Assembly (NCBI GenBank): GCA_964017235.1
Contig: OZ024935.1
Coordinates: forward strand, 92,441,207 to 92,505,206
Length of the DNA stretch: 64,000 nt
From: Sabellastarte sp. h YS-2021
Lineage: Eukaryota > Annelida > Polychaeta > Sabellida > Sabellidae
Reading direction: 5' to 3'
The translations under genes were made by a program, and so were the position numbers. Position 1 is the first letter of the stretch, and each line of letters starts with the position of its first letter. Positions 5,950 through 63,002 of the stretch are shown in pieces. Under the pieces are notes generated by a model that saw only the letters and a program-made list of their open reading frames with translations, did no database searches and was not told the DNA's origin.

Positions 5950-5960
5950 GGCATCATTTC

Positions 5961-6000
5961 ATAATCTCCCTCCCGGGCTAAAGCCCGGCGGGAGATAATA
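5961..6000 (+). repeat. Terminal hairpin of HEL-1
   Basis: TAATCTCCCTCCCGGGCT, a two-base loop region, then AGCCCGGCGGGAGATAATA: an inverted repeat with 6 + 8 paired bases around single mismatched positions. A strong GC-rich stem at the extreme 3' end is expected of rolling-circle elements as a termination signal. The same structure with a different loop closes HEL-2. Confidence 0.85.
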
Positions 6001-8055: not shown

Positions 8056-8390
8056 CTGATCAAAAGTGGAGACACATAAATAAATACTGGAACACTGTGA
8101 GGAGCTATGTTGCATTGAATAGATCATATAGCACCTTACCACAGTTAGCAGTTCAATGGAAGAACAAATGATTAGTGTAGAAATCATTGATTTACAGTCA
8201 ACGGTTATAGATCAGAAAGCTGGTAGCAGCTTTGCCAGTGTCTCTGGATCGGGAGCACTGAAGTCCTGACTAGCAATTATTAAGAATAATGAAACATTTT
8301 TTTCAGAATTCAAATTGTTATCCTGATGAAAGAAAGAAATACCTAAAACATATTTATCTTTATGTATTTTCCTGTAATAAACAAGACCAC
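8056..8390. other. Intron stretch upstream of exon 7934-8055, no clear gene
   Basis: A minus-strand stretch at 8284-8218 following a good acceptor (attgctag) would read QDFSAPDPETLAKLLPAF, but it runs into TGA without a donor. It is listed under rejected observations. Nothing else is recognised. Confidence 0.4.
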
Positions 8391-8514
8391 TGCCGCGGTA
8401 TGTATCTCCCGCCGAGTACCGCAGGGGAAGAAATACTACATTGAAATTTTTCCCCTTTGCATAGGACACCGTTGTACCATCCTGCAGGTCGAAAATTCGC
8501 TTGAAATCGCTCTA

Positions 8515-11500
8515 TCTGGAAACTTCACCATGTGAAAGCTCTTTCAAAAGTAGATGAATGAGTTATTTGAGAAAAATTGGCTATCTGCAATACTTTTAGA
8601 GATAATTCTCATTTACTCATTTTGAGTAGGTGAGTAATTAGCTATGGGTCTGAAACTTCACCATGTGACAGCTCTTCCAAAAGTAGATGAATGAGTTATT
8701 TGAGAAAAATTGACTATCTGCAATACTTTCAGAGATAATTCGCATTTACTCATTTTGAGTAGGTGAGTAATTAGCTACAGGTCTGAAACTTCACCAAGTG
8801 AAAGCTCTCCTAAAAGTACATGAATGAGTTATTTGAGAAAAATTGGCTAGCTGCAATACTTTTAGAGATAATTCACAGTTACTCATTTTTAGTAGGTGAG
8901 TAATTAGCTACAGGTCTGAAACTTCACCATGTGAAAGCTCTCCCAAAAGTAGGTGAATGAGTTATTTGAGAAAAATAGGCTATATGCAATACTCTTAGAG
9001 ATAATTCGCATTTACGCATTTTGAGTAGGTGAGTTATTACCTATGGGTCTGAAACTTTGCCATGTGAAAGCTCTTCCAAAAGTAGATGAATGAGTTATTT
9101 GAGAAAAATTGGCTATCTGCAATACTTTTAGAGATAATTCGCATTTACTCATTTTGAGTAGGCGAGTAAGTAGCTACGGGTCTGAAACTTCACAATGTGA
9201 AAGCTCTTCCAAAAGAAGATGAATGAGTTATTTGAGAAAAATTGGCTATCTGCAATATTTTTAGAGATAATTAGTATTTACTCATTTTGAGCAGGTGAGA
9301 AATTAGCTACAGGTCTGAAACTTCACCAAGTGAAAGCTTTCCCAAAAGTAGATGAATGAGTTATTTGAGAAAAATTGGCTATCTCCTATACTTTTAGAGA
9401 TAATTCGCATTTACTCATTTTGAGTAGGTGAGAAATTAGCTATGGGTCTGAAACTTCACCATGTGAAAGCTCTTCCAAAAGTAGATGAATGAGTTATTTG
9501 AGAAAAATTGGCTATCTGCAATACTTTTAGAGATAATTTGCATTTACTCATTTTGAGTAGGTGAGTAATTAGCTACGGGCGTGAAACTTCACCAAGTGAA
9601 AGCTCTCCCAAAAGTAGATGAATGACTTATTTGAGAAAAATTGTGTATCTGCAATTCTTTTAGAGATAATTCGCATTTACTCATTTTGAGTAGGTGAGTA
9701 ATTACCTACGGGTCTGAAACTTCACCAAGTGAAAGCTCTCCCAAAAGTAGATGAATGAGTTATTTGAGAAAAATTGGCTATCTGCAATACTTTTAGAGAG
9801 AATTCGCATTTACTCATTTTGAGTAGGTGAGTAATTAGCTATGGGTCTGAAACTTCACCATGTGAAAGCTCTTCCAAAAGTAGATGAATGAGTTATTTGA
9901 GAAAAATTGGCTATCTGCAATACTTTTAGAGATAATTCGCATTTACTCATTTTGAGTAGGCGAGTAATTAGCTATGGGTCTGAAACTTCACCAAGTGAAA
10001 GCTCTTCCAAAAGTAAATGAATGAGTTATTTGAGAAAAATTGGCTATCTGCAATACTTTTAGAGATATTTAGCATTTACTCATTTTGAGTAGGTGAGAAA
10101 TTAGCTACAGGTCTGACACTGCAAGTGAAAGCTCTCCCAAAAGTAGATCAATGAGTTATTTGAGAAAAATTGGCTATCTGCAATATTTTTACAGATAATT
10201 AGCATTTACTCATTTTGAGTAGGTGAGTAATTAGCTACGGGTCTGAAACTTCACCAAGTGAAAGCTCTTCCAAAAGTAGGTGAATGAGTTATTTGAGAAA
10301 AATTGGCTATCTGCAATACTTTTAGAGAGAATTCGCATTTACTCATTTTGAGTAGGTGAGTAATTACCTATGGGTCTGAAACTTCACCATGTGAAAGCTC
10401 TTCCAAAAGTAGATGAATGAGTTATTTGAGAAAAATTGGCTATCTGCAATACTTTTAGAGATAATTAGCATTTACTCATTTTGAGTAGGTGAGTAATTAG
10501 CTACGGGTCTGAAACTTCACCAAGTGAAAGCTCTCCCAAAAGTAGATGAATGAGTTATTTGAGAAAAATTGGCTATCTGCAATACTTTTAGAGAGAATTC
10601 GCATTTACTCATTTTGAGAAGGTGGGTAATTAGCTATGGGTCTGAAACTTCACCATGTGAAAGCTCTTCCAAAAGTAGATGAATGAGTTATTTGAGAAAA
10701 ATTGGCTATCTGCAATACTTTTAGAGATAATTCGCATTTACTCATTTTGAGTAGGCGAGTAATTAGCTATGGGTCTGAAACTTCACCAAGTGAAAGCTCT
10801 TCCAAAAGTAAATGAATGAGTTATTTGAGAAAAATTGGCTATCTGCAATACTTTTAGAGATATTTAGCATTTACTCATTTTGAGTAGGTGAGAAATTAGC
10901 TACAGGTCTGACACTTCACCAAGTGAAAGCTCTCCCAAAAGTAGATGAATGAGTTATTTGAGAAAAATTGGCTATCTGCAATACTTTTACAGATAATTAG
11001 CATTTACTCATTTTGAGTAGGTGAGTAATTAGCTACGGGTCTGAAACTTCACCAAGTGAAAGCTCTTCCAAAATTAGGTGAATGAGTTATTTGAGAAAAA
11101 TTGGCTATCTGCAATACTTTTAGAGATAATTCGCATTTACTCATTTTGAGTAGGTGAGTAATTAGCTATGGGTCTGAAACTTCACCATGTGAAAGCTCTT
11201 CCAAAAATAGATGAATGAGTTATTTGAGAAAAATTGGCTATCTGCAATACTTTTAGAGATAATTAGCATTTACTCATTTTGAGTAGGTGAGTAATTAGCT
11301 ACGGGTCTGAAACTTCACCAAGTGAAAGCTCTCCCAAAAGTAGATGAATAAGTTATTTGAGAAAAATTGGCTATCTGCAATACTTTTAGAGAGAATTCGC
11401 ATTTACTCATTTTGAATAGGTGAGTAATTAGCTATGGGTCTGAAACTTCACCATGCGAAAGCTCTTCCAAAAGTAGATGAATGAGTTATTTGAGAAAAAT

Positions 11501-12226
11501 TGGCTATCTGCAATACTTTTAGAGATAATTCGCATTTACTCATTTTGAGTAGGTGAGTAATTAGCTATGGGTCTGAAACTTCACCATGTGAAAGCTCTTC
11601 CAAAAGTAAATGAATGAGTTATTTGAGAAAAATTGGCTATCTGCAATACTTTTCGAGATATTTAGCATTTACTCATTTTGAGTAGGTGAGAAATTAGCTA
11701 CAGGTCTGACACTTCACCAAGTGAAAGCTCTCCCAAAAGTAGATGAATGAGTTATTTGAGAAAAATTGGCTATCTGCAATACTTTTACAGATATTTAGCA
11801 TTTACTCATTTTGAGTAGGTGAGAAATTAGCTACAGGTCTGACACTTCACCAAGTGAAAGCTCTCCCAAAAGTAGGTGAATGAGTTATTTGAGAAAAATT
11901 GGCTATCTTGTATACTTTTAGAGATAATTCGCATTTACTCATTTTGAGTAGGTGAGAAATTAGCTAGGGGTCTGAAACCTCACTAAGTGAAAGGTCTACC
12001 AAAAGTATATGAATGAGTTATTTGAGAAAAATTGGCTATCTGCAATACTTTTAGACATGATTAGCATTTACTCATTTTGAGTTGGTGAGTAACTAGCTAC
12101 GCGTCTGAAACTTAACCAAATGAAAGCTCTCCCAAAAGTAGGTGAATGAGTTATTTGAGAAAAATTGGCTACCTGCAATACTTTTAGAGATAATTCGCAT
12201 TTACTCATTTTGAGGAGGTGAGTAAG
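8515..12226 (+). repeat. 133-bp tandem satellite array, about 28 units, with 6-mer higher-order repeats
   Basis: TCTGAAACTTCACC recurs at 8649, 8782, 8915 and 9048: exactly 133 bp. Diagnostic variants (AAGTAAATGAATGAG followed by GAGATATTTAGC) occur near 10015, 10810 and 11608, about 795-798 bp apart, that is 6 units. GAGAGAATTCGC variants near 9796, 10590 and 11390 show the same step. So three copies of a hexameric higher-order unit are stacked between about 9.8 and 11.9 kb. Confidence 0.94.
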
Positions 12227-14240
12227 TAGGCCAAAGTTCACCAAACCATTTTCCCCTTAGCATAGGATACTCTAGTACTACCCTGTGGTTCAAAATGTTT
12301 GCTCGAAATTTCTCTATCTCTTACAGTTTGAGAGATATTTCTGATTTTTCACATTTTCACTAAAAGTAGCAATAAAGTAGCCATTACTCACTTGTACATT
12401 GAGCAACAGTTGTGAAACTTAAATACGTTACAGTTCACAAAAAAGTACATGAACAACATATTTGAGAGAAATTGTGTAGCTGCAATACTTTTGAAGATAT
12501 AAGCCATTTACTCATTATGGTTATCATTAAAAATTGAAAAAGTAGCTATTACTCACTTAGCTTTGGAGATACACTTCCAAATTACTGACCATGTTGTAGC
12601 TGTGGAGAAAGTAGCTGAACATCATATTGGAACAAAATTGTGTAGCTGCAATACTTTTGAAGATATAAGCCATTTACTTATTGACAGTTAAAAGTCATAT
12701 AATTATATTAGGTAAAAGCGCTATTACTCACTCAAAAGTAGGCCAAAGTTCACCAAACCTTTCCCCCCTTAGCAATAGGATACTCTAGTACTACCCTGTG
12801 GGTCAAAAATTTGCTCGAAATTGCTCTATATCTTACGGTTTGAGAGATATTTCTGATTTTTCACATTTTCACTAAAAGTAGCAATAAAGTAGCCATTACT
12901 CACTTGTACATCGAGCAACAGTTCTGAAACTTAAATATGTTACAGTTCACAAAAAAGTACATGAACAACATATTTGAGAGAAATTGTGTAGCTGCAATAC
13001 TTTTGAAGATATAAGCCATTTACTCATTATGGTTATCATTAAAAATTGAAAAAGTAGCTATTACTCACTTAGCTATGGAGATACACTTCCAAATTACTGA
13101 CCATGTTGTAGCTGTGGAGAAAGTAGCTGAACATCATATTGGAACAAAATTGTGTAGCTGCAATACTTTTGAAGATATAAGCCATTTACTCATTGACTGT
13201 TATAAGTCATATAATTATATTAGGTAAAAGCGCTATTACTCACTCAAAAGTAGGCCAAAGTTCACCAAACTTTTTCCCCCTTAGCAATAGGATACTCTAG
13301 TACTACCCTGTGGGTCAAAAATTTTGCTCGAAATTGCTCTATATCTTACAGTTCGAGAGATATTTCTGATTTTTCACATTTTCACTAAAAGTAGCAATAA
13401 AATAGCCATTACTCACTTGTACATTGAGCAACAGTTGTGAAACTTAAATATGTTACAGTTCACAAAAAAGTACATGAACAACATATTTGAGAGAAATTGT
13501 GTAGCTGCAATACTTTTGAAGATATAAGCAATTTACTCATTATGGTTATCATTAAAAATTGAAAAAGTAGCTATTACTCACTTAGCTATAGAGATACACT
13601 TCCAAACCACTGGCCATGTTGTAGCAGTGGAGAAAGTAGCTGAACAACATATTGGAACAAAATTGTGTAGCTGCAATACTTTTGAAGATATAAGCCATTT
13701 ACTCATTATGGTTATCATTAAAAACTGAAAAAGTAGCTATTACTCACTTAGCTACGGAGATACACTTCCAAACTACTGACCATGTTGTAGCAGAGGAGAA
13801 AGTAGCCGAACAACATATTGGAACAAAATTGTGTAGCTGCAATACTTTTGAAGATATAAGCCATTTACTCATTATGGTTATCATTAAAAATTGAAAAAGT
13901 AGCTATTACTCACTTAGCTATGGAGATACACTTGCAAACTACTGACCATGTTGTAGCTGTGGAGAAAGTAGCTGAACAACATATTGGAACAAAATTGTGT
14001 AGCTGTAACACTTATGAAGATATAAGCCATTTACTCATTATGGTTATAATTAAAAATTGACAAAGTAGCTATTACTCACTTAGCTATGGAGATACACTTC
14101 CAAACTACTGACCATGTTGTAGCTGTGGAGAAAGTAGCTGAACAACATATTAGAACAAAATACTGTAAATGCAATAGTTTCAGAGTTATAAGCCATATAA
14201 TTATATTAGCTAAAATAGCTATTACTCACTCAAAAGTAGG
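12227..14240 (+). repeat. 512-bp composite repeats and 166-bp monomers
   Basis: TAGGCCAAAGTTCACCAAAC recurs at about 12226, 12740, 13251 and 14236. The first three steps are about 512 bp. Within the last block a shorter unit, marked by TATGGTTATCATTAAAAA at 13541, 13707, 13873 and 14039, repeats every 166 bp. The 512-bp unit joins a segment like the 169-bp satellite (CCCTGTGGGTCAAAAATT, GAAATTGCTCTATATCTTA) to monomers of the TAGCTATTACTCACTTAGCTA type, so it is a chimera of two satellite classes found separately elsewhere in the window. Confidence 0.9.
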
Positions 14241-14344
14241 CCAAAGTTCACCAAACCCCAAAAATATTGAAGAGCAAAAAAATTCATTAGGACTTGTGAT
14301 TTACCAAAAATGTGTAACTGTAGTAGTTTCAGAGAAAACAGCGT

Positions 14345-14396
14345 GACACACGCACGCACGCACGCACGCACCCATGCACGCACGTACACACGCACA
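14345..14396 (+). repeat. (ACGC)n microsatellite of HEL-2
   Basis: About 50 bases of acgc tetramers with cccatg and tacac interruptions immediately before the terminal hairpin, matching HEL-1. Confidence 0.92.
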
Positions 14397-14406
14397 TGGT
14401 GCAAAT

Positions 14407-14443
14407 TATAATCTCCCTCCGGCGAGCCGGGCGGGAGATAATA
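14407..14443 (+). repeat. Terminal hairpin of HEL-2
   Basis: TATAATCTCCCTCCGGCGAG followed by CCGGGCGGGAGATAATA forms a stem with CTCCC/GGGAG and CCGG/CCGG pairing. It closes the element at its 3' end. Confidence 0.82.
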
Positions 14444-16136: not shown

Positions 16137-16168
16137 TTACCCGTAACATCTTGAAGGTAAAGGAATAC

Positions 16169-17330
16169 CTAGATCCTGGGAATGACTCCTGAAGACTTGG
16201 TTGTAGCGGATGTGCCCCCCCCCCCCCTTTTTTCTTTCCGAGGACAACTGGTCTGAGGGGAAGGATCTAGGACTTGTTGTGCAGCCACTACGGGTCCCAG
16301 GTACAAATTGTTGTCGGTGTCCGACCAAGTAAGGTCTTTTAGGTAAAAATTTGTAAATGTGTTGTGAGCTTTCCAGTGACAGGCTTGCATGATTTGGTCC
16401 ACCGTAAAAGGCCTTAGAGGCCGCGAAGGCCCGGATGTCATGCGTTTTGACTTGGACCAAGTCCAAGGCTTGTTGATCTGCTTGTTTGTAACAAAGTAAG
16501 ATGGTTTGTTTCAACCATGAAGAGAGTGTAGCGGGTCTGATGTCTGAGGTATGTCCTTTCTTAAAGGAGATGAAAAGGAGAGAACGAGACCCTCTCAGGT
16601 CTTTAGTTCGGTCCAAATAAAACCTCAGGGCCCGCACGGGACACAGGGTCCTGTCTTCTTTAAACTGTCTATCTACAATGGTAGTCAAAGCAGGAATAGT
16701 CACTGGTGACACACTTTGAGAACCTTCTCTTGCTAGTTGGTTTTTGGCTATGAAATCAGAAGAAGGGAACAAGGCTACCTTTTCCCATTGGCCTAAATTA
16801 GCTACTTTGTTAGCGACCCAGGCATGGATTTCGCTGCGGCGCTTGCCGGAGGCCAAGGCTAGCAAGAAAGCAGTTTTAAGAGTAAGATGTTTGAGGTCTG
16901 AGTCTTTCATGGGCTCAAATGGTGCTTTGGTGAGCTCATTAAGGACAACAGAAAGGTTCCACTTGGGTAAATTTCTGGAACTTTTAGGACGATCCCTGTG
17001 AAAACTGGAGAGTAACCTATGAAGGTCTGCATTGTGCGCAATGTGTTGGGCCGTTGGGCCCAAAGTGTCAACGATAGCAGTCCTGTAACCATCAATGGTC
17101 GAGGGGTGCCTGTTTAGGTCTTGGTACAGGTACATGAAAAAATCTGAGATTTGTTTCACAGATGGAGTGGAGAAATCCACCGAATTTTCTCTGCACCATT
17201 TTTCAAATAGGGCCCACTTTGACCTGTAGATGGTCCTTGTTGATGACCGCTGAGGGGCAGCAATTCTCTCTGCCACCTCCACAGAGAAGCCTTGTTCTTG
17301 GAGTTGTCCGCTCCTAGACACCAGGCGTGG
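16169..17330 (-). pseudogene. DIRS-A tyrosine recombinase, frameshifted
   Basis: The lambda-type integrase fold begins near QEQGFSVEVAERIAAPQRSS and continues through PSTIDGYRTAI, then LASGKRRSEIHAW (first catalytic arginine, about 16835), CPVRALRFYLDRT, and HDIRAFAASKAF (catalytic HxxR, about 16440). The final block, with CHWKAHNTF and FYLKDL (nucleophilic tyrosine, about 16350), is in a different frame. A small deletion near 16405, just after SKAF, therefore breaks the gene. Apart from this the domain is complete. It would act on circular cDNA to insert the element without target-site duplication. Confidence 0.88.
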
Positions 17331-19110: not shown

Positions 19111-19182
19111 TTTGTGAGCCAGTCTCTCCTGAAAGAACGGAGGCGACCTCCTACTGGTGGACTGAGTGAGGCTTTGGAGGAG

Positions 19183-21348: not shown

Positions 21349-21570
21349 TTTATACGCAATAAAAGACGTACAATAGAATTGCCTGAACCGAGGAAAGCTA
21401 AAAACACGCGGAAGTCAAGAAATATTTAAGGTGGGAAAATCAGAATTTTACAGAATGATCTATAGCATAGAAATAAAGAAATATGCAAATATTAGCCTCC
21501 AACAATAAGTAAGAACTGAGAAATAAATAGAAATGTCTGTATATTTACAAACTGCTACCAGTCATCGTGG

Positions 21571-27344: not shown

Positions 27345-27535
27345 AAACTATGAAACAGAGAATAGCAATACTCAAGACAAAAACTTACCAAGGCATTTGC
27401 CACTATAACTCTGACATCATGTGAAAGAAAATGTTGGATGTAATGCAAATCACGTAGGTTAGCACAACAGGATTTGATCACAGAATTTACTTGATTGGTG
27501 AAACTAAATTTTAAGTCAAACAATACACCCACCCA
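27345..27535 (-). mobile_element. Minus-strand LINE relic, part 1 (RT C-terminus)
   Basis: Minus translation gives WVGVLFDLKFSFTNQVNSV, then LRDLHYIQHFLSHDVRV and ANALVSFCLEYCYSLF. This is the thumb/connection segment of CR1/L2-type reverse transcriptases (compare LGVIFD and ANSMISSRLDYCNSLL in the plus-strand LINE next to it). It ends abruptly against the plus-strand LINE, and its upstream part resumes at 30041-30105. Confidence 0.75.
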
Positions 27536-27539
27536 TATT

Positions 27540-30040
27540 GCAAACGTCAATTGGGGAGCGGCAGTTACCCAAAATGTTGACAGGGGAAGAATCTTTAAGC
27601 CATTTGTACCAAATGTAATATTAGGTGATTTAAATCTACACCTGGATAAACAGGACGGTTGGTCGCAGAAATTCAATGATTCCCTCTGCCAATATAATTT
27701 CACCCAAATTATTGATTCCCCAACACACATTCATGGCCATATATTAGATGTCATATGTGTGAGGGACACCTTTTCAAAGGCACTCTGCGCTAAGGTTATA
27801 GCTGGGCTATCTGACCATTTAGCCATCACTTTTTCGGTCAATATACCTATTGAGGTTCCCTGCAAATTTAGACAAGTTAATACCCGGAAAATTCACAAGA
27901 TAAACATCACGGATTTTAAAGAGGACATCCTGAATTCTGATCTAATCAAGCATCCTCACAGAACAGCCAGTTTGCTCAGTCACCAATATTTCAACACCTT
28001 GCGCAGCATTCTAGACAAGCATGCCCCAATAAAGAGGAAAATGGCTCCAGTGCACCCCGACAAAGGCTTTGTGAATTCAGACATCCTCTCAGCAAAGCGT
28101 CTGAAGCGCAAGTGTGAGCGAGTATGGCGCAGTAACAACTCTGCAATCAACCGGAGAAGATATCGAGCTGCTGTCAATCGCTACAATTTCCTACTGGAAC
28201 AATCAAGACGCAGGCACTATTCCACTGTCATTGCTGAAAATAATGGTAACCCCAAGGCTCTGTGGAACACTTTCAAGAAAATCTTGCACAAAACCTCAAC
28301 TATCATCCTACCCGATCATATTAGTCCTACTGATTTAGCTAACACTTTCGGTCATTTTTTCAGTGACAAAATTGTGAAAATCAGAGTTGCTTTAGAGTCA
28401 TCAGTGCCCGTTTCCCTCACAATACCGAAGAGTAATAGCAGTGCCCTGACCTCTTTTGAGCCTGTATCTGAGGATGACATCCTCAAAATCCTAAGGTCAT
28501 CCAACACCAAATCATCCGACCTGGACCCAATCCCTACCGCACTAGTCAAAGAGTGTGCGGACATTTTGGTCACTCCAATCACCAATATTATAAACTATTC
28601 ACTCAAAGAAGGGAGTTTCCCAAACTGTTTCAAAACAGCATATGTCACCCCTCTTCTCAAGAAACCAAACTTAGACAGAAATCTCCTAAAAAACTATAGA
28701 CCGGTATCCAACCTTAGTTTCTTATCCAAACTGATCGAAAAAGTAGTTGCCAAACAGTTAAATAATTATATCGATAGCGAGGGGCTCTCCAATGTCAACC
28801 AATCCGCTTACAGGAGACTCCATTCCACAGAAACAGCGCTGTTGAAAATCCAGAATGACATTGCTGCTTCGTTGGACTCTGGTAAGGCTGTTGCACTCAC
28901 ACTGCTAGACCTCTCAGCGGCATTCGACACTATCGACCATGACATTCTTTTTAATTCCCTAAGAGATTGGTTTGGGGTTGATGGCCCCTTTGATTTTACC
29001 CTTTACACAACCCCTCTCAGTAATATCATTTCCAATTTCAATGTCACCCACCATCTATATGCTGATGACACCCAAATATATCTAGCATTGGACAATAGGA
29101 ATTTTGATTCCAGTTTCGCTGAGCTTACAGAGTGTCTCACATGTATCCAAAACTGGATGGCTGGCGTGAAATTGAAACTCAATCCCGAGAAAACTGAATT
29201 TATTATAATAGGTGATAGACAAGCCAGAGAGTCCCTCATTAATAAATTCCCTACTCAACTTCTCGGAAATTCTATTTCCCCTACTGATACAGTCAAGAAC
29301 CTGGGTGTAATTTTTGACTCTGGAAACACCTTTTCCAACCACATAACTAATATGTGTCGAGCCTGCTACTACCACCTTAAGGACCTAAGACGTATTCGTA
29401 AATTCCTCAGTGTGGAAACTGCAGCCTTGCTTGCAAACTCAATGATCAGTAGTCGACTTGACTACTGCAATTCCCTACTTTATGGCATCAGTAAGTACAA
29501 TGTTGCTAAACTCCAAAAGATACAAAATGCCCTTTGTAGAATTGTTTTTAGACTTGATAGAACTAGCCATGTCACTCCTTTTCTTCAAAAACTACACTGG
29601 CTTCCTATCACTTACCGTATATTGTTTAAGTACAATCTAATTACTTTCAAGGCTATAAATTTCTCTCAACCCATATACCTATCATCCTTGATCAAAACCA
29701 GTTGTCTAACACGTGGAAATCGTCTTTCTCTTTCCTCAGCCTCTCACAAAAAGGCCATCGGTAGGATAGGTTTTGTAGTGGCTTCCCCCATAGAATGGAA
29801 CAGACTCCCACAATCAGTACGATCACAACAAACAATAACAGGTTTCCGTAGCCAGCTAAAGACCTACTTGTTTAGATTAGCATATCCTCCACCATAGTAC
29901 ATCTCCCTGGCGGGCGCTAACCTTGGATCATGACCTCGAACGTCCCTTGACTTTCCCTTTTTGATTTCAAGCGCATTAGAGGATGTTGCATCAATTTTGC
30001 GCTATACAAATGTTTCTATTCTATTCTATTCTATTCTATC
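27540..30040 (+). mobile_element. 5'-truncated CR1/L2-type LINE, inserted in an older LINE
   Basis: It begins within the apurinic endonuclease domain (GDLNLHLDK, then SDHLAITF), continues through the reverse transcriptase to FRSQLKTYLFRLA at 29890, and has a short 3' region ending in five TTCTA pentamers (about 30015-30040). A microsatellite-like 3' tail in place of poly(A) is usual for the CR1/L2 group. 5' truncation is typical of target-primed reverse transcription. The left junction lies somewhere in 27535-27620. Confidence 0.85.
27600..29897 (+). pseudogene. LINE endonuclease/reverse transcriptase ORF with RT deletion
   Basis: The frame is open for almost 800 codons. It shows the EN C-terminus, RT motifs NYRPVSNLSFLSKLIEK, then LLDLSAAFDTIDHDIL, YADDTQIY (catalytic YADD) and LKLNPEKTEFI. 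Between WFGVDG and PFDFTLYTTPL about 45 residues normally present are missing, including the PQGSVLGP motif that forms part of the active-site fold. The deletion is in frame, so the ORF looks intact but the enzyme should be dead. No methionine is meaningful because the copy is 5'-truncated. Confidence 0.85.
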
Positions 30041-43519: not shown

Positions 43520-43999
43520 TTCAGTATCCAGGGACAGATGGGGGTCAAACATTGTGGATGAATGCCAGATATTAAAACTAGACCAAGGACGCATCTATGG
43601 CCAGATGCAAAACGTATCCACCGGCAAAGGCAAAAGTAGCGATTACTCAGCTATGTCACGAGCTAGAGGTCTGAAATTTTACTATGTTATAGCTGACCCA
43701 AAAGTAGGTGAATGACATGCACAAAATTCTCTAAATGCAATAGTTTTCAAGTTACAAGTGATTTTACTCATGATGGAAGTTAGTGAAAAATCCAAAAGTA
43801 GCTATTACTCACTTAGCTATTGAGATAGACACCCAAGTTACTCACAATGTTATAGCTATGCAAAAAGTAGCTGAATAACATATTTTAACAAAGTGCTCTA
43901 AATGCAATACGTTTCAACTTATAATTGATTTAGTGCATGATTTCATTAATTTTAATGCATTAAAAATTATTTAAAAAATTCATAAGAAAACTTTAGAAT

Positions 44000-44335
44000 G
44001 TGAAAGCTCTCCAAAATGTAGGTGAATGAGTTATTTGAGAAATACTGGCTATCTGCAATACTTTTAGAGATAATTCGCATTTACTCATTTTGAGTAAGTG
44101 AGTAATTAGCTATGGGTCTGAAACTTCACCAAGTGAAAGCTCTCCCAAAAGTAGGTGAATGAGTTATTTGAGAAAAATTGGCTATCTGCAATACTTTTAG
44201 AGATAATTCGCATTTACTCATTTTGAGTAGTGAGTAATTAGCTATGGGTCTGAAACTTCACCAAGCGAATACTCTCCCAAAAGTAAGTAAATGAGTTTTT
44301 TTGAGAAAAATTGGCTATCTGCAATACTTTTAGAA
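44000..44335 (+). repeat. 133-bp satellite block, about 2.5 units
   Basis: Units contain TTGGCTATCTGCAATACTTT and TTTACTCATTTTGAGTA, the same monomer as in HEL-2. Confidence 0.88.
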
Positions 44336-44800
44336 ATCAATACTTGAAATCGCTCTATCTCTTACAGTTTTCGGGATATTTGCATTTTTTGTATTTCGTA
44401 AAAAAACGGTCAAAGAAACACCCACGGCGGCCATCTTGTTTTTGTCCAGATATCCAGAATAACTAGAGGATCGCTCGCAAAAAAAAAAGATAATGTTTTT
44501 GCATAGCAAAAACAAAGCGTCCCGAAAAGGATATAAAGGTGAGTGCTAAAGTATTAAGAAAATGCTTCGTTTCTAGCCTTATACTGTTGTGGCAACCAAA
44601 GTCAGCGCAGTCTGCTCTATCTAGCACGGTTTTCAAGATATAAGCATTTTTGTGTTTTGCAAAAAATAAAAAAATTAAAAATGTCCGCTATATTTGGCGA
44701 GACAAAAATATTTTGAAAATTGGCATGGCTACTCTGCAGAGATACCCAGCAGGTCCAAAATTTTGTTGAGTTCGCTCCATATAGCACGGTTTTCGAGATA

Positions 44801-45374
44801 CTGTATAAGTGGTTATTTTCGTGTGGAATTAATTTTCGCTATATTCGTGAGTGACTACAAAACGCGAAAATAACTTCTAGCCAATATTTATCAGAACCAG
44901 TCTAGCGTGAGCGATAATACAAGATTGTGCAAGATACAATATTTGACACTGCCACGGAAACAATAAATTCCATTGCTTTATCAAATGTACCATTCACAGA
45001 AACGCCTAACTTCTTTGATCTTTATCACCAATAGGGAGGGATTAATTCAATTACACGACCCCGCTACACAACTTCTTTGATAATGCGCCGATCAATGAAA
45101 GTGTGTTCGATTGGGTTTCGTAAATTTATAATCTCCCAGAGTAGGTTCACACACTGACAACGTGTATAAAAGAAAAGACGTTAACTATGCATTTCCAATC
45201 AAACCAGCAGAAGTCCGCGTAATATTTTAATTTGAACATGCTGTTGGGCGATAACTGAATATAATAACTGAATAATAACTGAATATATTTCACCGCGAAA
45301 ATAAATTCTTGCGAACCAGGCCTACAGTGTACATTCGCAAACTTAAGTACCCGCGAAAAAAACCACTTATACAG
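44801..45374. mobile_element. TA-flanked MITE (mariner-like), 574 bp
   Basis: Terminal inverted repeats CTGTATAAGTGGTTATTTTC and (right, inverse) CTGTATAAGTGGTTTTTTTC. The flanks are TA on both sides: the left context is TTTTCGAGATA and the right is TATAAGCATTTTT. Removing the element and one TA restores CGAGATATAAGCATTTTT, which is the normal text of the 169-bp satellite nearby, giving a clean empty site. TA duplication is the mark of the Tc1/mariner superfamily. No transposase. Confidence 0.88.
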
Positions 45375-45451
45375 TATAAGCATTTTTATGTTTTGCAAAA
45401 ACTTTGAAAATTCAAAATGGCCACCATTTTTGGGGAGACAAAAATTTTTGT

Positions 45452-45486
45452 CAAGACCACTGCTGTGGTGTGTATCTCCCGCCGAG
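45452..45486 (+). repeat. HEL-2-type left terminus inside HEL-3
   Basis: CAAGACCACTGCTGTGGTGT then GTATCTCCCGCCGAG matches 8391-8416 through the bases preceding the TATCTCCCGCC motif. No matching GGCGGGAGAT hairpin was found downstream in this block, so the right end has been lost or replaced. Confidence 0.75.
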
Positions 45487-45540
45487 CATTAAAGCAGAAG
45501 AAATAGCTTTTCCGAGATATTCACAATTTTTCATTTTCGT

Positions 45541-47283
45541 GTGTGAAAGGTCTTCCAAAAGTAGGTGAATGAGTTATTTGAGAAAAATTGGCTATCTGCA
45601 ATACTATTAAGAGATAATTCACATTTACTCATTTTGAGTAGGTGAATAATTATCTATGGGTCTGAAACTTCACCAAGTGAAAGCTCTCCCAAAAGTAGGT
45701 GAATGAGTTATTTGAGAAAAATTGGCTATCTGCAATACTTTTAGAGATAATTCGCATTTACTCATTTTGAGTAGTGAGTAATTAGCTATGGGTCTGAAAC
45801 TTCACCATGTGAAAGCTCTCCCACAAGTAGATGAATGAGTATTTGATAAAAATTGGGTATCCGCAATACTTTTACAGATAATTAGCATTTACTCATTTTG
45901 AGTAGGTGAATAAATAGCTATGGGTCTGAAACTTCACAGAGTGAAAGCTCTCCCAAAAGTAGGTGAATGAGTTATTTGAGAAAAATTGGCTATCTGCAAT
46001 ACTTTTACAGATAATTCACATTTACTCATTTTGAGTTGGTGAATAATTAGCTATGGGTCTGAAACTTCACCAAGTGAAAGCTCTGCCAAAAGTAGGTGAA
46101 TGATTTATTTGAGAAAAATTGGCTATCTGCAATACTTTTAGAGATAATTCGCATTTACTCATTTTGAGTAGGTGAGTAATTAGCTATGGGTCTGAAACTT
46201 CACCAAGTGAAAGCTCTCCCAAAAGTAGGTGAATGAGTTATTTGAGAAAAATTGGCTATCTGCAATACTTTTAGAGATAATTCGCATTTACTCATTTTGA
46301 GTAGACAAATAATTAGCTATGGGTCTAAAACTTCACCAAGTGAAAGCTCTCCCCAAAGTAGGTGAATGATTAATTTGAGAAAAATTGGCTATCTGCAATA
46401 CTTTTAGAGATAATTCGCATTTACTCATTTTGAGTAGGTGAGTAATTAGCTATGGGTCTGAAACTTCACCAAGTGAAAGCTCTCCCAAAAGTAGGTGAAT
46501 GAGTTATTTGAGAAAAATTGGCTATCTGCAATACTTTTAGAGATAATTCGCATTTACTCATTTTGAGTAGGTGAGTAATTAGCTATGGGTCTGAAACTTC
46601 ACAGAGTGAAAGCTCTCCCAAAAGTAGGTGAATGAGTTATTTGAGAAAAATTGGCTATCTGCAATACTTTTAGAGATAATTCGCATTTACTCATTTTGAG
46701 TAGGTGAGTAATTAGCTATGGGTCTGAAACTTCACCAAGTGAAAGCTCTCCCAAAAGTAGGTGAATGAGTTATTTGAGAAAAATTGGCTATCTGCAATAC
46801 TTTTAGAGATAATTCGCATTTACTCATTTTGAGTAGGTGAGTAATTAGCTATGGGTCTGAAACTTCACCATGTGAAAGCTCTCCCACAAGTAGATGAATG
46901 AGTTATTTGATAAAAATTGGGTATCCGCAATACTTTTACAGATAATTCGCATTTACTCATTTTGAGTAGGTAAATAATTAGCTATGGGTCTGAAACTTCA
47001 CCATGTGAAAGCTCTCCCAAAAGTAGGTGAATGAGTTATTTGAGAAAAATTGGCTATCTGCAATACTTTTAGAGATAATTCGCATTTACTCATTTTGAGT
47101 AGGTGAGTAATTGGCTATGGGTCTGAAACTTCACCATGTGAAAGCTCTTCCAAAAGTAGGTGAATGAGTTATTTGAGAAAAATTGGCCATCTGCAATACT
47201 TTTAGAGGTAATTCGCATTTACTCTTTTTGAGTAGGTGAGCAATTAGCTATGGGTCTGAAACTTCACCAAGTGAAAGCTCTTT
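45541..47283 (+). repeat. 133-bp satellite array, about 13 units
   Basis: Same monomer as 8515-12226 (GGTCTGAAACTTCACCAAGT, AAAAGTAGGTGAATGAGTTA). Units in the centre (46180-46860) look more uniform than those at the edges. Confidence 0.94.
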
Positions 47284-49255
47284 GGGATAGCTGCTCTGCA
47301 GAGATACCCTGAAGATAAAAAATTTCGTCGAAATCGCTCTATGTAGCACGGTTTTCGAAATATTAGCATTTTTGTGTTTTGCAATTTTTGCGCAAAAATT
47401 CGAAAATTCAAAATGGCCGCCATTTTTGGCAAGACAAAATTTTTTTGAAAATTGGCATGGCTACTCTCCATAGATACCCTGTGGGTCAAAAATTTCGTCG
47501 AAATCGCTCTATCTAGCACGGTTTTCGAGATATAAGCATTTTTGTGTTTTGCAATTTTGCGAAAAATTCGAAAATTCAAAATGGCCGCCATTTTTTGCGA
47601 GAAATTTTTTGCTTGAAAATTGGCAGCTACTCTGCAGAGATACCCTGTGGGTCAAAAATTTCGTCGAAATCGCTCTATCTAGCAGGGTTTTCGAGATATA
47701 AGCAATTTTATGTTTTGCAATTTTTGCGAAAAATTCGAAAATTCAAAATGGCCGCCATTTTTGGCGAGACAAAATTTTTTTCAAAATTGGGATAACTACT
47801 CTGCAGAGATACCCTGCGGGTCAAAAATTTCGTCGAAATCGCTCTATCTAGCACGGTTTTCGAGATATAAGCATTTTTGTGTTTTGCAATTTTTGCATAA
47901 ATTTCGAAAATTCAAAATGGCCGCCATTTTTGGCGAGACAAAATTTTTTTCAAAATTGGGATAACTACTCTGTAGAGATACCCTGCGGGTCAAAAATTTC
48001 GTCGAAATCGCTCTATCTAGCACGGTTTTCGAGATATAAGCATTTTTGTGTTTTGCAATTTTTGCAAAAATTTCGAAAATTCAAAATGGCCGCCATTTTT
48101 GGCGAGACAAAAATTTTTTCAAAATTGGGATAACTACTCTGCAGAGATACCCTGTGGGTCAAAAATTTCGTCAAAATCGCTCTATCTAGCACGGTTTTCG
48201 AGATATAAGCATTTTTGTGTTTTGCAATTTTTGCAAAAATTTCGAAAATTCAAAATGGCCGCCATTTTTGGCGAGACAAAAATTTTTTGAAAATTGGGAA
48301 AAGTACTCCGCAGAGATATCCTGCGGGTCAAAAATTTTGTCGAAATTGCTCTATCTAGCACGGTTTTTGAGATACAAAAGCATTTTTGTGGTTTGCAATT
48401 TTTGCGAAAAATTCGAAAATTCAAAATGGCCGCCATTTTTGGCGAGACAAAAATTTTTTCAAAATTGGGATAACTACTCTGCAGAGATACCCTGTGGGTC
48501 AAAAATTTCGCCGAAATCGCTCTATCTAGCACGGTTTTCGAGATATAAGCATTTTTGTGTTTTGCAATTTTTGCAAAAATTTCGAAAATTCAAAATGGCC
48601 GCCATTTTTGGCGAGACAAAAATTTTTTGAAAATTGGGAAAAGTACTCCGCAGAGATATCCTGCGGGTCAAAAATTTTGTCGAAATTGCTCTATCTAGCA
48701 CGGTTTTTGAGATACAAAAGCATTTTTGTGGTTTGCAATTTTTGCGAAAAATTCGAAAATTCAAAATGGCCGCCATTTTTGGCGAGACAAAAATTTTTTC
48801 AAAATTGGGATAACTACTCTGCAGAGATACCCTGTGGGTCAAAAATTTCGCCGAAATCGCTCTATCTAGCACGGTTTTCGAGATATAAGCATTTTTGTGT
48901 TTTGCAATTTTTGCGAAAATTTCGAAAATTCAAAATGGCCGCCATTTTTGGCGAGACAAAAATTTTTTGAAAATTGGGAAAAGTACTCCGCAGAGATATC
49001 CTGCGGATCAAAAATTTTGTCGAAATTGCTCTATCTAGCACGGTTTTTGAGATATAAGCATTTTTGTGTTTTGCAACTTTTGCGAAAATTTCGAAAATTC
49101 AAAATGGCCGCCATTTTTGGCGAGACAAAAATTTTTTGAAAATTGGGAAAACTGCTCCGCAGAGATACCCTGCGGGTCAAAAATTTCGTCGAAATCGCTC
49201 TATCTAGCACGGTTTTCGAGATATAAGCATTTTTGTGTTTTCCTTATTTGGAAAA
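47284..49255 (+). repeat. 169-bp satellite array, about 12 units, with 340-bp dimers
   Basis: TTCAAAATGGCCGCCATTTT recurs every 166-171 bp, with TCTAGCACGGTTTTCGAGAT in each unit. A dimer of about 340 bp (one unit with AAAGTACTCCGCAGAGATAT, one with AACTACTCTGCAGAGATACC) is repeated nearly exactly at 48217-48556 and 48557-48896. Long open frames on both strands come from unit lengths near multiples of three and are not considered genes. Confidence 0.94.
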
Positions 49256-49260
49256 TTCGT

Positions 49261-49278
49261 AATGATTAATTAATCATT
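49261..49278. repeat. Perfect AT-rich palindrome at the array edge
   Basis: AATGATTAATTAATCATT reads the same on both strands. It marks the end of the 169-bp array. Confidence 0.8.
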
Positions 49279-49431
49279 AATTACTCGGCCATTTCTTGAC
49301 CAATCAATGCCAAAATCTAATGATTTCCAGATTTTAATAGAATGAATGTATTTGCCAAGTTTCAGGTGAATTGATAAAATTCCTTTCAAGTTATCATCCG
49401 GACAAGCTTCCCCATCAAAAAAAGACATTTT

Positions 49432-49650
49432 TGGTCATGTGACCTCTCTGATTGGTTGAAATGTCACTGCAGCATATTCAAAAAAATTCCCCAAGGCTAC
49501 TGCCTAAACCTGCCAAATTTGAAAAGAATCCGCCTAACGGTTACAGAGTTATAAGGAAAACAAAATGCAGAGCCCGCGGAGCCACCGGAGCCGGCGGAGC
49601 CAGAAGCTCTCCCATACACAAACAAGCGTCCCGCAAGGACTTGACCATGA
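49432..49650 (+). repeat. Dispersed repeat fragment, paralogous to 24405-24640
   Basis: GTCATGTGACCTCTCTGATT, CATATTCAAAAAAATTCCCC and GGAGCCACCGGAGCCGGCGG correspond in order to the text at 24405-24640. Here it lies inside the 3' part of HEL-3, followed by a GCG-trinucleotide run (49798-49810). Confidence 0.6.
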
Positions 49651-49830
49651 TGAACATATCCTGCAAACTTGAAAAGTGTACACTGCATGCCTTTTGATAT
49701 ACTGGGGCAGCAAAAGTCCCTAAAAATTTGAATGAAACGGCCGTGGCGGCCATCTTGTTTTTGGCAATGAGTGGGTAACGAGAAATCATCTACACTGCGG
49801 CGGCGGCGGCGTACCCCTGCGAAAACCATA

Positions 49831-49858
49831 GTATCCACCGGATGCATCCGGTGGATAC
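49831..49858. repeat. Perfect 28-bp terminal palindrome of HEL-3
   Basis: GTATCCACCGGATG followed directly by CATCCGGTGGATAC. It would form a 14-bp stem with minimal loop. Its outer half mirrors the left end at 43614. Confidence 0.92.
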
Positions 49859-49862
49859 AATA

Positions 49863-58334: not shown

Positions 58335-59400
58335 TTATTGGTGAATCTGCTGAGCAGCCACTACAGGACCCAAATGGAAGAGCTCTGAGTCAGCCCAGGC
58401 CACATCCTTCAGATAAAATTGTGTGAAGGTATTATGAGACTTCCAGTGGCAGGCTGCTAAGATCTGATCTAAGGAAACTCCCGACTGGAAGGCCTTAGAG
58501 GCAGCAAAGGCCCTAACATCATGGGCTTTAACTTGATGTAGGGTGTGTGCTTGCTGATCAGAGAGCTCATAGCATATGATCACAGTCTGTTTGATCCAAG
58601 AGGAGATAGTGGCAGGGGAGATGTCTTTGTCAAAACCTTTCTTGAAGGAGACAAAAACCAATTCCTTATTCTGCCTTAGGTCTGAGGTCCTGTCCAAATA
58701 GTAGCGCAAGGCTCTGACTGGACATAGGGATCTGTCAGACCGGAGGGACTTATCCAGGGTAGGAGCCAGGGCTGGTATGACCACTGGGGCTACACTTCCC
58801 GGACCCTCTTTGGCCAGTTGGTTCTCGGAAAGAAAGCTGGGGGATGGATACAGAGACACCTTAGACCAGTCAGTTTGGTGTCTGATGTTTTTGTGCTGCC
58901 ATGCATGGATCTCACTCCTCCTTTTGCCAGAGCCCAGTGCCAATAGGAAAGTGGTTTTGAAGGTCAAATGCTTCAAAGATGCCTCCCTAAGGGGTTTGAA
59001 TGGAGCCTTTGTCAGCTGGTGTAATACCAGAGAGAGGTTCCTGGAGGGTATTCCCCTCTGACCTTTGGGCCTATCTCTATGGAAACTTTCCAAGAGACGA
59101 GTGAGATTATCGTCTTTGCTGATATTGACTCTTGCATTACCTAGTTTATCAGCAATGGCAGACCTGTAACCATCAATGGTGCTGGGTTGTAACTTCTTGT
59201 CCTCAAAGAGGTACAGGAGGAAGTCAGCAATCGACTTTATAGGTGGTGACCTGAAGTCCACCTGATGAGTGAAGTACCACTTTGTAAAAATGGTCCACTT
59301 TGCCTCATAGACTGATCTGATTGATCTTCTTTGAGGAGCCTCAATTCTTGACGCCACTGCCTCAGAGAAGCCCTGTTCCTTGATTGCTGTGGCTCTAGGA
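58335..59400 (-). CDS. DIRS-B tyrosine recombinase, apparently intact
   Basis: The frame reads through the whole domain: ATAIKEQGFSEAVASR (about 59385), PSTIDGYRSAIADKLG, LGSGKRRSEIHAW (first catalytic arginine, about 58907), CPVRALRYYLDRT, HDVRAFAASKAF (HxxR, about 58520), CHWKSHNTFTQFYLKD (tyrosine nucleophile, about 58420) and LGPVVAAQQ at the end. The three catalytic arginine/histidine positions and the tyrosine are all in one frame. The open frame extends upstream to 59942, overlapping RNase H in another frame, so the start is not defined. About 350 residues, normal for the family. Confidence 0.88.
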
Positions 59401-60713
59401 GCCAGGCATGGAGATTTAGATTTGTCAGATTTCTGTGAGGGATCTGATTGAAGGGCTGTGTCAACAGGTTGGTCATGTTGGGCAGGCTGAGAGGGACTTG
59501 ACTTGACATGGTCACCAAATCCCAGAACCAAGGCATGTTGGGCCAACCCGGTGCAATCAGAATGAGTCTCCTGCACGGGGAACCCTGCAATTTCTCCACC
59601 ACTTTGCCCAATATGGCGGTCGGTGGGAAGGCATATGCATCCAGATCTTCCCAAGTGAGAGTGAGGGCATCCACTGCTACAGCTAGGGAGTCCGGTACTG
59701 GAGACACAAATTGAGGTAACTTGTGGTTGAACCTCGTGGCAAATAGATCTATCTGAGGACGGTGCCATTTTCTGCACAGCCTTTGAAAGACTTCCGGAAG
59801 GAGAGGCCATTCGGTCTGGATGGTTTGACCCAGCCTGGATAACTTGTCCGCTATCACATTTAGATGGCCTGGGATATGTCGGGCTTTTAGAGTTACCTGG
59901 TGGTTGGTACACCAGGTCAAGATTCTCCATAGAAGGGCACAAAGTGGGCCTGACCTCATACCTCCCTCCTTGTTTATGTAGGCTACTACTGTTGTATTGT
60001 CCGTGGCCACTAGGACAATTTTGGCCGTACAGATTTCCCTCCTAGTTTATGTGCAGTTTGCTTTCGGGTACTGACCAGGAACCTCTTGCAGTATGTTGGC
60101 CAAGGTGAGCACCCCACCCTTCTTTTGACACGTCTGTAAAGATTTGCAGTGCGTGTTTTAACGGATGCAGTTGTTGACCTTGCAGTACATTGCGTTCGTC
60201 CAACCACCACTCCAAATGAGGGTGAAGGGATCTGGGTACTGGAATGATCTTCTCCAGTGCTTCCGGCACTCTCCAGTTGTTTTTGAGATGCCACTGTATG
60301 GGTCTCATGTCAAGCCGGCCAAGATAAACCTGCTTTTCTGTGGCTGTTAGCAGACCAAGCTCAGAGATGTTTGGTTTCTTACTATCTCGACTGCATTTTT
60401 GTCTATAAGCTGATGTAATGCCTCCAGTAGGTAGCTGGTCCTCTGGGGATTGACATAGCAGCTTATGACGGTCGGAAACCTTACTAGCTTTGGCCGGATC
60501 CGAAAGGGGAGGGTGTAGCCCTCTTTGAGGATTTGAACTACCTTTGGACCGGCGCCCAGATCTAGCCAAGTTTTCCAAAAGCTCTGAAGTCTGGCCCCTA
60601 CAGATAGATTGGGGGCAACATTTGGTACATTTGAAACAGGATTGACACAAGACAATTGAGTGACACACGAAACACTTTTCACAGATTTTAATTTGCATTC
60701 TTTGTACTGACAA
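59237..60713 (-). pseudogene. DIRS-B pol remnant: Cys-rich start, RT fingers, RNase H, RT core deleted
   Basis: A cysteine cluster (KICEKCFVCHSIVLCQSCF, about 60690-60620) leads into the N-terminal RT region in another frame (ARLQSFWKTWLDLGAG, RPKLVRFPTVISCY, LIDKNAVEIV). The sequence then jumps at about 60360 directly to LGLLTATEKQVYLGRLDMRP, which lies after the polymerase core. About 190 residues, including the YxDD motif, are absent. RNase H follows (IFTDVSKEGWGAHLGQH), but the segment with its second acidic residue (NVLELKAI in DIRS-A) is deleted near 60040. VATDNTTVVAYINKEGG and LFATRFNHKLP continue to 59237. Confidence 0.88.
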
Positions 60714-60840
60714 TTTACTGGCGCAGTAGTGACAAGAGGAACAACAGGAAACTTTACATTTAAAGTGTCTTTTGTCTGTGTGAAAATGTTGCTCCGGGCC
60801 AGCAGTCGTGTGTGGAGCTTGGTTATACAGTAACTGTCAT

Positions 60841-62937
60841 TTATATGACTGCTGGCCCTTGGCAGGTCGGGATGAGAATGAGGCAGAACGACCCTTTCCT
60901 ATACTGTCTCTTCCCGATGGTTTTCCATGCAGGTTTGTCCGGTCGTGTGTCTTTGTTGCCTGACTTCTTCTCCGGTCGTTCATACGGGTGGTACCGACCC
61001 TTGTTGTGACCAGAAGTAGAGTGACCTTTCGATTCAAACTGAGCTATGTCTTCCTCTGCTCGTTTGATGGTGGCATCCGGGAAAAGGGTTGGAAGGTGAA
61101 GAGGAGCCGTTCGCAATGCTGTGAGAGTGTCCTGTTTAATTCCTGTTCTGAGATGACTGAGATATGCATCACGGTGGACAAGAGTAAGATTTCCCATTGT
61201 GATGAAGACAAAGTCGGATAGATGCTCCATCGACTTGGCAGCCGCCTGTGAAATGCTTGCATTAAAATCTAGCAAATAGTGAAGCTCAACAACAGCAGGT
61301 GAAACCTTTGCCGACCCTTTTCCCTTATTCTCTGCTTTCAGTAGTTTGAGTTGTTCCTTCATATTCTGCTGAACTCGTACAAGGCAGCGATTAAAACTAG
61401 CAGTCTGGTTACATATGACTGAGGCCTCACGGGCCGACCTTTCCCATCTGCGTAAAGTCTCTTGAGAGATTCTACGGGAAGCAGGAGGGGTGGATCCCAG
61501 GCCCGTATATCTGGCTATGCGACTGTAACTACTGTTTAGCTTAACTGCGTCGCTGTGTCATGTGGAGACTTTTGAAGGGTCAGGTTTCTGGTCGGTGTGG
61601 AGCCCATACCACTTTGATTGAGAATGTGGTGGTCGGAGGAAAACGTCCTTGGCCAGTCCACCAGCCTCCGACCCCCTGGAAGGGTAACCCTCAGCTATGG
61701 TTAGGTTGAGCTTCCTAAGCTTTTCACAGAGCCACTCCTCTGTAGGCATTCTGACAGATACCTTGCCCGGAGTAACAGTCTTTGGTCCGGCGAAAGGGTT
61801 GTTATCTGATGTGGCAGTTGTATTGTCGACCTCAGGGATATGGGACCAACCCATATAAGAGCGGATACCTTGCATAGTGTCCCGGTAGTTTTGCTCTTCA
61901 GAGACCGGTTGGTCCTGGTCAGCTACAGAATGTTCCTCAGACCATTCTCCCTCTTCGGCATATAAGTCCAGGGGGGGCCTGTCCAACAGTTCACTACCAT
62001 CATTGGAGGAGAGGCTTGAAAAGCTGTCCTGTCTGGACCTATGTAAAGCCGGGGAGCCCGAGTCTGCTGTATCAGAGGGCATAGGTCGGTCGGTAGTTGG
62101 TGGTCGGTGAGTCTTGGTTGAGGAAGTAGGTCGGCTGGTTCTAGTTTGACTGGCCGGCTGATGCTTACTAGCAGAGGAGCCCGTACCAGGAAACTTGCTG
62201 CATGAAGACTGCTGACTGGTCAATGCTTTACTGGTCGGCTGATGCTTTTCAGCAGAGAAGCCAGTTCCAGGAAGCGCAGCAGATGATGAAGGTCGGATGA
62301 ATGGATCAGATACCTGTTCTACAGAAGCTGGAGGTGAATGGGTCGGAGTGACTTTAACATTTGCAGAAAACTGTGGTTCGAAGTTCTTAGACAAAAGCAA
62401 GGCTTCTATCCGGTTGAAACGCTCCGCCCATTTTGAATCTAAGTCTGCTATCTTGTCATCAGCAGAAGGAGGCTTTGAGACAGTAGCAGTAGGAGATTTA
62501 TCTTTCTTACCGACCTTTCTAGAGTCCCTCTTAACTTTCTTATCAGGCGGAGGGGCCTCCACAGTAGATTTGGAAGTACTTGGTTTCTCTACAGGCCCAA
62601 TAACAGACACGCTAGCTGGGTCAACTAAATCCTCACTGTCTTTAGTAGGAGTTGCTTCCAGTTTCTTGGCCTCCCGTTTTTCTTTTTTAATTCTATACGA
62701 GGGAGTGGCTAGCTGAAGGCGTTGTTCTTCAGAGAAGGCATTACAGATTCTGCAATCAGAAGTCTGGGGGTTTTTTACACAATCGTCTGTCCCCTTACCC
62801 TTCTCGCAACATCTTGCACAAAATGCATGAGAGTCAAAATTCGCCATAGCGTGTCCACAACTGCCTCTGCGTTGGCCAGGAGACGACATGATAGTCCTGG
62901 TATACGATGAACACAAATAATAATGAAGAAAAAACAA
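60841..62937 (-). pseudogene. DIRS-B gag-like gene with one internal stop
   Basis: From about 62889 it reads MSSPGQRRGSCGHAMANFDS with the Cys/His block (C-x-x-C-C, later C-R-I-C-N-A-F-S-E-E-Q) shared with DIRS-A gag. A serine/proline-rich middle follows. A TGA at 61558-61560 interrupts it, and the same frame resumes through MKEQLKLLKAEN, a helical region (LDFNASISQAAAKSMEHLSD) and a basic tail ending near 60841. About 690 codons overall, close to the 721 of DIRS-A. Confidence 0.82.
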
Positions 62938-63002
62938 AATGGTAGCAGGAAAACTCAGAAAACTTCTTTGAATAAAATTCCTTGTGCACTAGCACGCACC
63001 AA

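Follow-up and report, generated by a model that had tools for sequence, protein, structure and literature searches.

The stretch analysed here (the window) comprises 64,000 nucleotides of contig OZ024935.1 (assembly GCA_964017235.1) from the sabellid annelid Sabellastarte sp. h YS-2021. Its interval 43578-49858 holds tandem arrays of 133-bp and 169-bp repeats together with three kinds of end sequence, here named O (the outer element), I (an element nested in O) and H (an end of the HEL-2 type, a guest within I). HEL-2 itself, further left in the window, also carries a 133-bp array and served as the comparison element. An earlier note, made from the sequence letters, had described the interval as one 6.25-kb element, HEL-3, with terminal motifs unrelated to those of HEL-2. 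It is very probable that the interval is instead a nest of Helentron-type non-autonomous elements (HINEs), which belong to the rolling-circle transposons. Copies and exact sites were searched for in the window's own genome (1.786 Gb, 647 contigs), from which all loci with L-numbers were read.

The motif GTATCCACCGG occurs at 43614-43624 (+), 49831-49841 (+) and 49848-49858 (-), and the two right-hand copies together make up GTATCCACCGGATGCATCCGGTGGATAC. With up to two mismatches it gave 13 matches vs 4.97 expected, and at least 13 were reached in 0 of 100 shuffles. An exact search of the genome gave 94 sites for the perfect 28-bp palindrome (49831-49858) and none for its reversed control; the end that carries the palindrome folds with a z-score of -6.55, equalled in 0 of 200 shuffles. 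Because of this count and this fold, the palindrome is not a product of chance. A CGG-rich stretch adjoins it in the window and in L001-L004. Both end motifs of the earlier note are present, but its left edge has to be moved: the outer boundary of O is the CTAG at 43578, read CTAG/TT on the minus strand (the slash marks the element border), 36 bp beyond GTATCCACCGG. These 36 bp are kept among O copies. At 30 left-end loci, one of them in the window itself (3,509 candidates, 40 of which were scored), ACTAGACCAAGGACGCATCTGTGGCCAGATGCAAGAT precedes GTATCCACCGG, and AA precedes each of the 26 O 3' termini that were recognised by sequence pattern; the other four loci are truncated (L018) or have altered termini (L019, L023 and L031). 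At the opposite side AA follows the palindrome in 5/5 copies not selected for AA, which is T/TGTATCCACCGG on the minus strand. Since AA follows the palindrome, and the hairpin and CTAG sit on the other side, the palindrome is read as the 5' end, and O, judged by its sequence, is a HINE on the minus strand. The palindrome as a 3' end, the polarity given earlier, is ruled out by the position of the hairpin and CTAG.

A complete, uninterrupted O of 1,330 bp with both ends present was found at L016. Its palindrome has two changes, and it is ~91-92% identical to the outer pieces of the window in the three best-matching stretches. Of the 94 palindromes, 50 were listed; in 17 of these an exact copy of an internal O-family marker precedes the palindrome by 290-310 bp in matching orientation, and the other 33 have no exact marker within 2 kb. 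Such co-occurrence at a consistent distance, as the earlier note had expected, supports the view that GTATCCACCGG and the palindrome are the paired ends of one family. The pairing is not exclusive. A search of the 30 left-end loci with the pattern GGATACAA, which other right-end types would escape, gave nine right ends, of which seven were GTATCCCCG-type hairpins and two were palindromes (L016 and the window), so the O left end is more often paired with a non-palindrome right end (7/9 vs 2/9). Upstream of L070, at L073, there is a complete O 3' end with another flank and a subterminal sequence unlike the usual one, and the O 3' end upstream of L069, at L072, is truncated. The two 5' types and the subterminal swap of L073 indicate that module exchange in this genome is real, and to this extent the earlier suggestion of core capture or end replacement holds.

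Two further observations concern these copies. At L073:297-560 the O 3' terminal stretch and the different subterminal sequence are followed by a 133-bp array again. L018 contains two head-to-tail O units at positions 24 and 1501 (1,477 bp apart), both joined to a 133-bp monomer at an identical shortened terminus, and is possibly a tandem array of whole elements.

Where the window has 44463-49640, L001, L002, L003 and L016 run unbroken through CCAGAATAATTCCC and read CCAGAATAATTCCCAAG; the window has CCAGAATAA followed by CTAGAGGATCGCTCGC, the start of I. The 23-mer at the left end of I has 7,732 exact genome copies (3,893 + 3,839; control 0), mostly elsewhere, and the inverted repeats of I, AAG(T/C)GTCCCG, differ from those of O. 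The interval as a single 6.25-kb element is rejected on account of L016, L001-L003 and 109 exact uninterrupted sites. That HEL-3 is a real family of this length, its core captured from HEL-2 or its ends replaced, is very unlikely. Such a family would agree with the exact O/I left junction being found at 8 places on 6 contigs (the window included), which makes the composite no private accident, and with the combination of O ends with different inner modules; the 8 places stand, however, against the 109 uninterrupted sites, L016 is complete without I, the left end of I abounds outside O, and 133-bp monomers are already present in O copies that lack I.

L068 is an independent copy of I, 95.6% identical to 44461-44800 and 92.1% to 45375-46057, and does not have the intervening 574 bp, which in the window are a TA-flanked inverted-repeat element. 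On its 5' side the I of the window stops at AAGCGTCCCGCAAGGAC, where the diverged relative at L004 (~71% over 729 bp) continues ..CGTCCCTCACGGGACACTT/AATTCCC. The window copy has probably lost its 5' hairpin arm, perhaps between two TCCC repeats. The empty site of I, CCAGAAT-AA-TTCCC, contains a single AA, and AA is also present at every filled end, a pattern that fits either A/A insertion with terminal A's or a 2-bp duplication.

Within I the 169-bp units stop at 45450 and restart at 47282 nearly in phase, and an HEL-2-type 3' end and a 133-bp array lie between them. This end, at 45452, matches 8382 in 32/35 bases, and the array (45543-47281) is ~90-94% identical to 8519-12229 over long alignments; both resemblances had been pointed out earlier. 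The array does not form the core of the GTATCCACCGG element, as had been thought, but lies in the nested I with other ends. L068 has the H end and the 133-bp array at the same junction as the window, and in the I copy of L004 the array is present and the H end deleted; among the three I copies read far enough, the array was thus found in 3/3 and the foreign end in 2/3. The H end at 45452 is, as far as these copies tell, a guest fixed in I (window and L068) and not a sign that HEL-3 ends have replaced those of HEL-2. Ends of the H type were also seen at L015, L016 (minus strand), L022 and window 8382. Separately, the 133-bp array of L068 is interrupted at 1050-1100 by one more CTAG-type end (AACTAGATTGGGCC..ATATCCCCAGAC), probably that of a further HINE family. 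The features are collected in Table 1; the parts named in the earlier note are among them, together with two that it had missed, the second array of 11.6 x 169 bp and the 2.5 133-bp copies belonging to O.

Table 1. Parts of the proposed nest and the comparison element (window positions)
Feature	Position	Strand	Basis or remark
O 3' terminus GTCCTTGGTCTAG (minus-strand reading), target A/A = T/T	43578..43590	-	AA at 26/26 termini
O 3' palindrome/hairpin GCATCTGGCCATAGATGC, 13 nt from terminus	43591..43608	-	lone fold not significant
O 3' subterminal inverted repeat (left motif of the earlier note)	43614..43624	-	motif search, copy alignment
O 3' subterminal region, degenerate relatives (~70%) of the 133-bp monomer	43625..43999	-	
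O's own 133-bp copies, 2.5	44000..44334	not assigned	
O 5'-side spacer to nested insertion, ending CCAGAATAA/	44335..44462		uninterrupted relatives
Nested HINE I, 3' end CTAG at 44463, 5' hairpin arm apparently lost at 49640	44463..49640	-	
I 169-bp-type units left of the guest, split by the terminal-inverted-repeat element	44548..45450		
Short terminal-inverted-repeat element inside I, TA both sides	44801..45374		L068 lacks it at this position
H 3' end and subterminal region, guest in a 169-bp unit of I	45452..45541	-	matches 8382
133-bp array, 13.1 copies	45543..47281		
I 169-bp array, 11.6 copies, resuming nearly in phase past the guest	47282..49241		
I 5' subterminal region ending ..AAGCGTCCCGCAAGGAC	49242..49640	-	diverged relative L004
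O 5' subterminal region, CGG-rich microsatellite-like stretch ~49797-49812	49641..49830	-	
O 5' subterminal inverted repeat and its complement, together the 28-bp palindrome	49831..49858	-	
HEL-2, second carrier of the 133-bp array	8382..14443	-	comparison only

Three of the seven other O/I junctions were read (L069-L071), and they have the O right-hand region and O 133-bp units to the same base. Instead of being copies of one composite, the junctions could have arisen as I inserted up to eight times independently at a favoured site in O, a possibility to which we give slightly less than an even chance. The thousands of I copies speak for such a hotspot, as do the I-type right end that L071 has in a different TAATT context and the differing O backbones of the junction copies (the other subterminal sequence of L073 and the truncation of L072). 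Random insertion, however, would lead to an expectation of ~117 x 7732 / 1.786e9 = 0.0005 such junctions, and even a strong 7-base target preference, which could lift it to ~1, would leave it below eight. The module mixing at L072 and L073 fits either a mobile recombined composite or a hotspot, two readings that we consider about equally likely. The GTCCCG variant (4/4 junction copies, 0/2 others) was rejected as evidence that the composite copies share an ancestor: it is the common form in the genome, with 6,586 copies, and carries no information on a shared origin, in line with a hotspot. The intact-looking I/O right junction was dropped as a count of composites, its only exact place in the genome being L004. 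At L071, an I-type right end AAGCGTCCCTGACGGGCCGCTT was seen at ~650-690 within an O 133-bp array.

The monomers of the 133-bp arrays were compared across the end families, as the earlier note had proposed. After 63 hits had been dropped (short or <82%), 230 monomers were kept, of which 33 O arrays contributed 180, 3 I arrays 23 and the single HEL-2 array 27; this repeats an earlier run of 227 after the addition of L068. The distance between families minus that within families was -0.005 (permutation p 0.83). In the monomer tree the end labels change 23 times vs a mean of 21.8 under whole-array relabelling, 322 of 500 relabellings being as low or lower. One subtype is common to O (27/180) and I (5/23) and has 0/27 occurrences in HEL-2. 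The monomers are intermixed and show no sorting by end family, in a test that has little power with so few non-O arrays. O does not belong to the HEL-2 family, the ends being CTAGACC..GTATCCACCGG vs CAAGACC..GTATCTCCCGCC. On the grounds of the nest structure and the intermixed monomers, the 133-bp satellite is, as we read these sequences, common to three end families, in one case apparently through nested insertion and co-amplification. Alternatively, the satellite could have an existence of its own and have been acquired by several elements or served them as an insertion site. Intermixing is what a common external pool would lead one to expect, but all 133-bp arrays seen lie inside HINE-ended elements, in a sample of loci that were picked by those ends and is biased accordingly, and the 3' region of O consists of degenerate relatives of the monomer; we therefore consider an independent origin unlikely. 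Regarding the comparison elements, HEL-1 (990-5999) and HEL-2 both contain the subterminal motif TATCTCCCGCC, and (CACG)-type microsatellites adjoin their right hairpins, an anatomy of HINEs on the minus strand. The fold of the HEL-2 ends, as delimited here, was not significant.

The following course of events is very probable. O, on the minus strand, consists of the 5' T/TGTATCCACCGG palindrome, a core with few 133-bp monomers, the 3' inverse motif, the hairpin and CTAG/T. It was split at A/A by a member of I, whose family is very abundant and has inverted repeats of another sequence. Before that, an ancestor of I had received an HEL-2-type HINE with its 133-bp array inside one 169-bp unit, and this guest, having lost its own 5' end, is now copied along with I. 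The boundaries, the uninterrupted relatives, the independent I copies with the same guest or array and the intermixing of the monomers were all observed directly. Because none of the Rep loci examined carries O or I ends, we can only infer the mode of movement, with a Rep/helicase-endonuclease presumably supplied in trans and host copying passing through the foreign 3' hairpin of the guest. In Helraiser, the 3' hairpin acts as a terminator, a swap for a foreign hairpin gave deletion-like activity, the hairpin can be bypassed, and both bypass of the 3' end and newly gained 3' ends have been described (PMC4778049). By analogy, passage through the hairpin of the guest is plausible. A wider proposal is that nested insertion carries satellite arrays from one Helentron family to another and that the composites (H in I, I in O) move as units, a guest in the host's core that has lost its 5' end being unable to leave by itself and being amplified with a host whose machinery ignores its 3' hairpin, so that satellites would be inherited across unrelated transposon families; we put this forward tentatively, with its chance somewhat short of one half.

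A possible source of the enzymes is present in the genome. The Helitron Rep domain has 24 matches, and none in 14 control genomes. L056 contains an intact open frame of 2,245 aa that comprises Rep and PIF1 helicase and has an endonuclease-like match at its C-terminus, which is the Helentron arrangement described in PMC4067079. L056, L057 and L058 are Helentron-like elements, each with a long open frame, and are nearly identical to one another (~98-99%); L056 and L057 share the end ..GACCCTCTTG/T, and L058 has a large insertion. At L045, near 264 on the minus strand, an O-type GTATCCCCG 5' end lies close to a Rep match and faces away from it.

Several results weigh against a nest of HINEs moved in this way. 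The O 3' hairpin folded alone has a z-score of -1.11, which is not significant. AA precedes only 3/6 of the H-type ends seen. The I of the window is without a clean 5' end, and the sole exact I/O right junction is found in a diverged I. In the monomer test, I was represented by no more than 3 arrays and HEL-2 by one. The endonuclease match of L056 (E 0.00023) scores 21.4 vs 24.5 bits, below the Pfam cut-off. Ends of O or I were present at 0/9 Rep loci examined, where 5' ends were mostly not reached, and neither was found in 6 stretches downstream of Rep domains, one of which did not match the reference protein at all, or at the 3' border that L056 and L057 have in common.

In HINEs the 5' subterminal inverted repeat (subTIR) is accompanied by its complement (PMC7492417; PMC4067079). 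As described, HINEs have subTIRs of 11-15 bp, the 5' one 2-4 nt from the terminus; the 11-bp GTATCCACCGG of O begins 1-2 nt inside the T/T border, and its partner in 7/9 right ends, GTATCCCCG, is an imperfect match. The 3' subTIR (~38-60 bp from the 3' terminus in HINEs) and the palindrome (8-35 bp) lie at 36 bp, just under the range, and 13 bp in O, which also has the central tandem repeats and the microsatellite near the 5' end. As regards T/T insertion without duplication, AA is found at 26/26 left and 5/5 right termini of O, the empty site coming from I only. Cg_HINE of Crassostrea gigas, as described in PMC7492417, resembles O in its 5' subTIR with adjacent complement and microsatellite, and the present elements in its central satellite-like arrays, sometimes two in a row, its 3' subterminal repeat and 3' palindrome, a T-rich or TT target, described in oyster as free of duplication, and an autonomous partner that was not identified. 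The DINE-1/HINE elements and Helentrons of PMC4067079 likewise have one subTIR close to the 5' terminus and another some tens of bp before the 3' terminus, a palindrome 8-35 bp from the latter and central repeats. The bivalve Pearl elements CvA/CvE/CvG, MgE and DTC84, likened here by description alone, have this architecture with central repeats of ~160 bp (PMC7492417; PMC11136912). The termini that the earlier note called unrelated thus all share the HINE anatomy in plan.

Some features depart from these systems. O and I end in CTAG as canonical Helitrons do, not in the plain Helentron 3' end, and form a nested composite; the Phytophthora proto-Helentron (5' TT, 3' CTAG) shares the CTAG end with them (PMC4067079). 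In canonical Helitrons such as Helraiser the 3' hairpin similarly lies ~11-13 nt before CTAG, but the 5' TC and A/T target described for them (PMC4778049) were not found in O, which has subterminal inverted repeats, the 5' sequence TTGTATCC and the target A/A. In C. gigas, according to PMC7492417, any given satellite cluster consistently has the same particular pair of flanks, although the converse does not hold, and recombination or insertion is named as a possible origin of elements with two arrays; here one 133-bp satellite is found with three end pairs. O and I are of a known kind, the HINEs; the presence of one satellite with different ends departs from the oyster pattern. The uninterrupted relatives at both levels of the nest show one concrete route for a satellite into transposons with different ends. 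Since the satellite is not tied to one flank pair, its phylogeny can be told apart from that of the elements here, and the two can be compared. If the O/I composite is mobile, a foreign internal 3' hairpin need not halt the copying of an element.

Elsewhere in the window there are long open reading frames at 16137-21414 and 58335-62988 (minus strand), which by eye we take to be of the DIRS retrotransposon type, and a frame at 27495-29897 (+) that is presumably LINE-like, again by eye.

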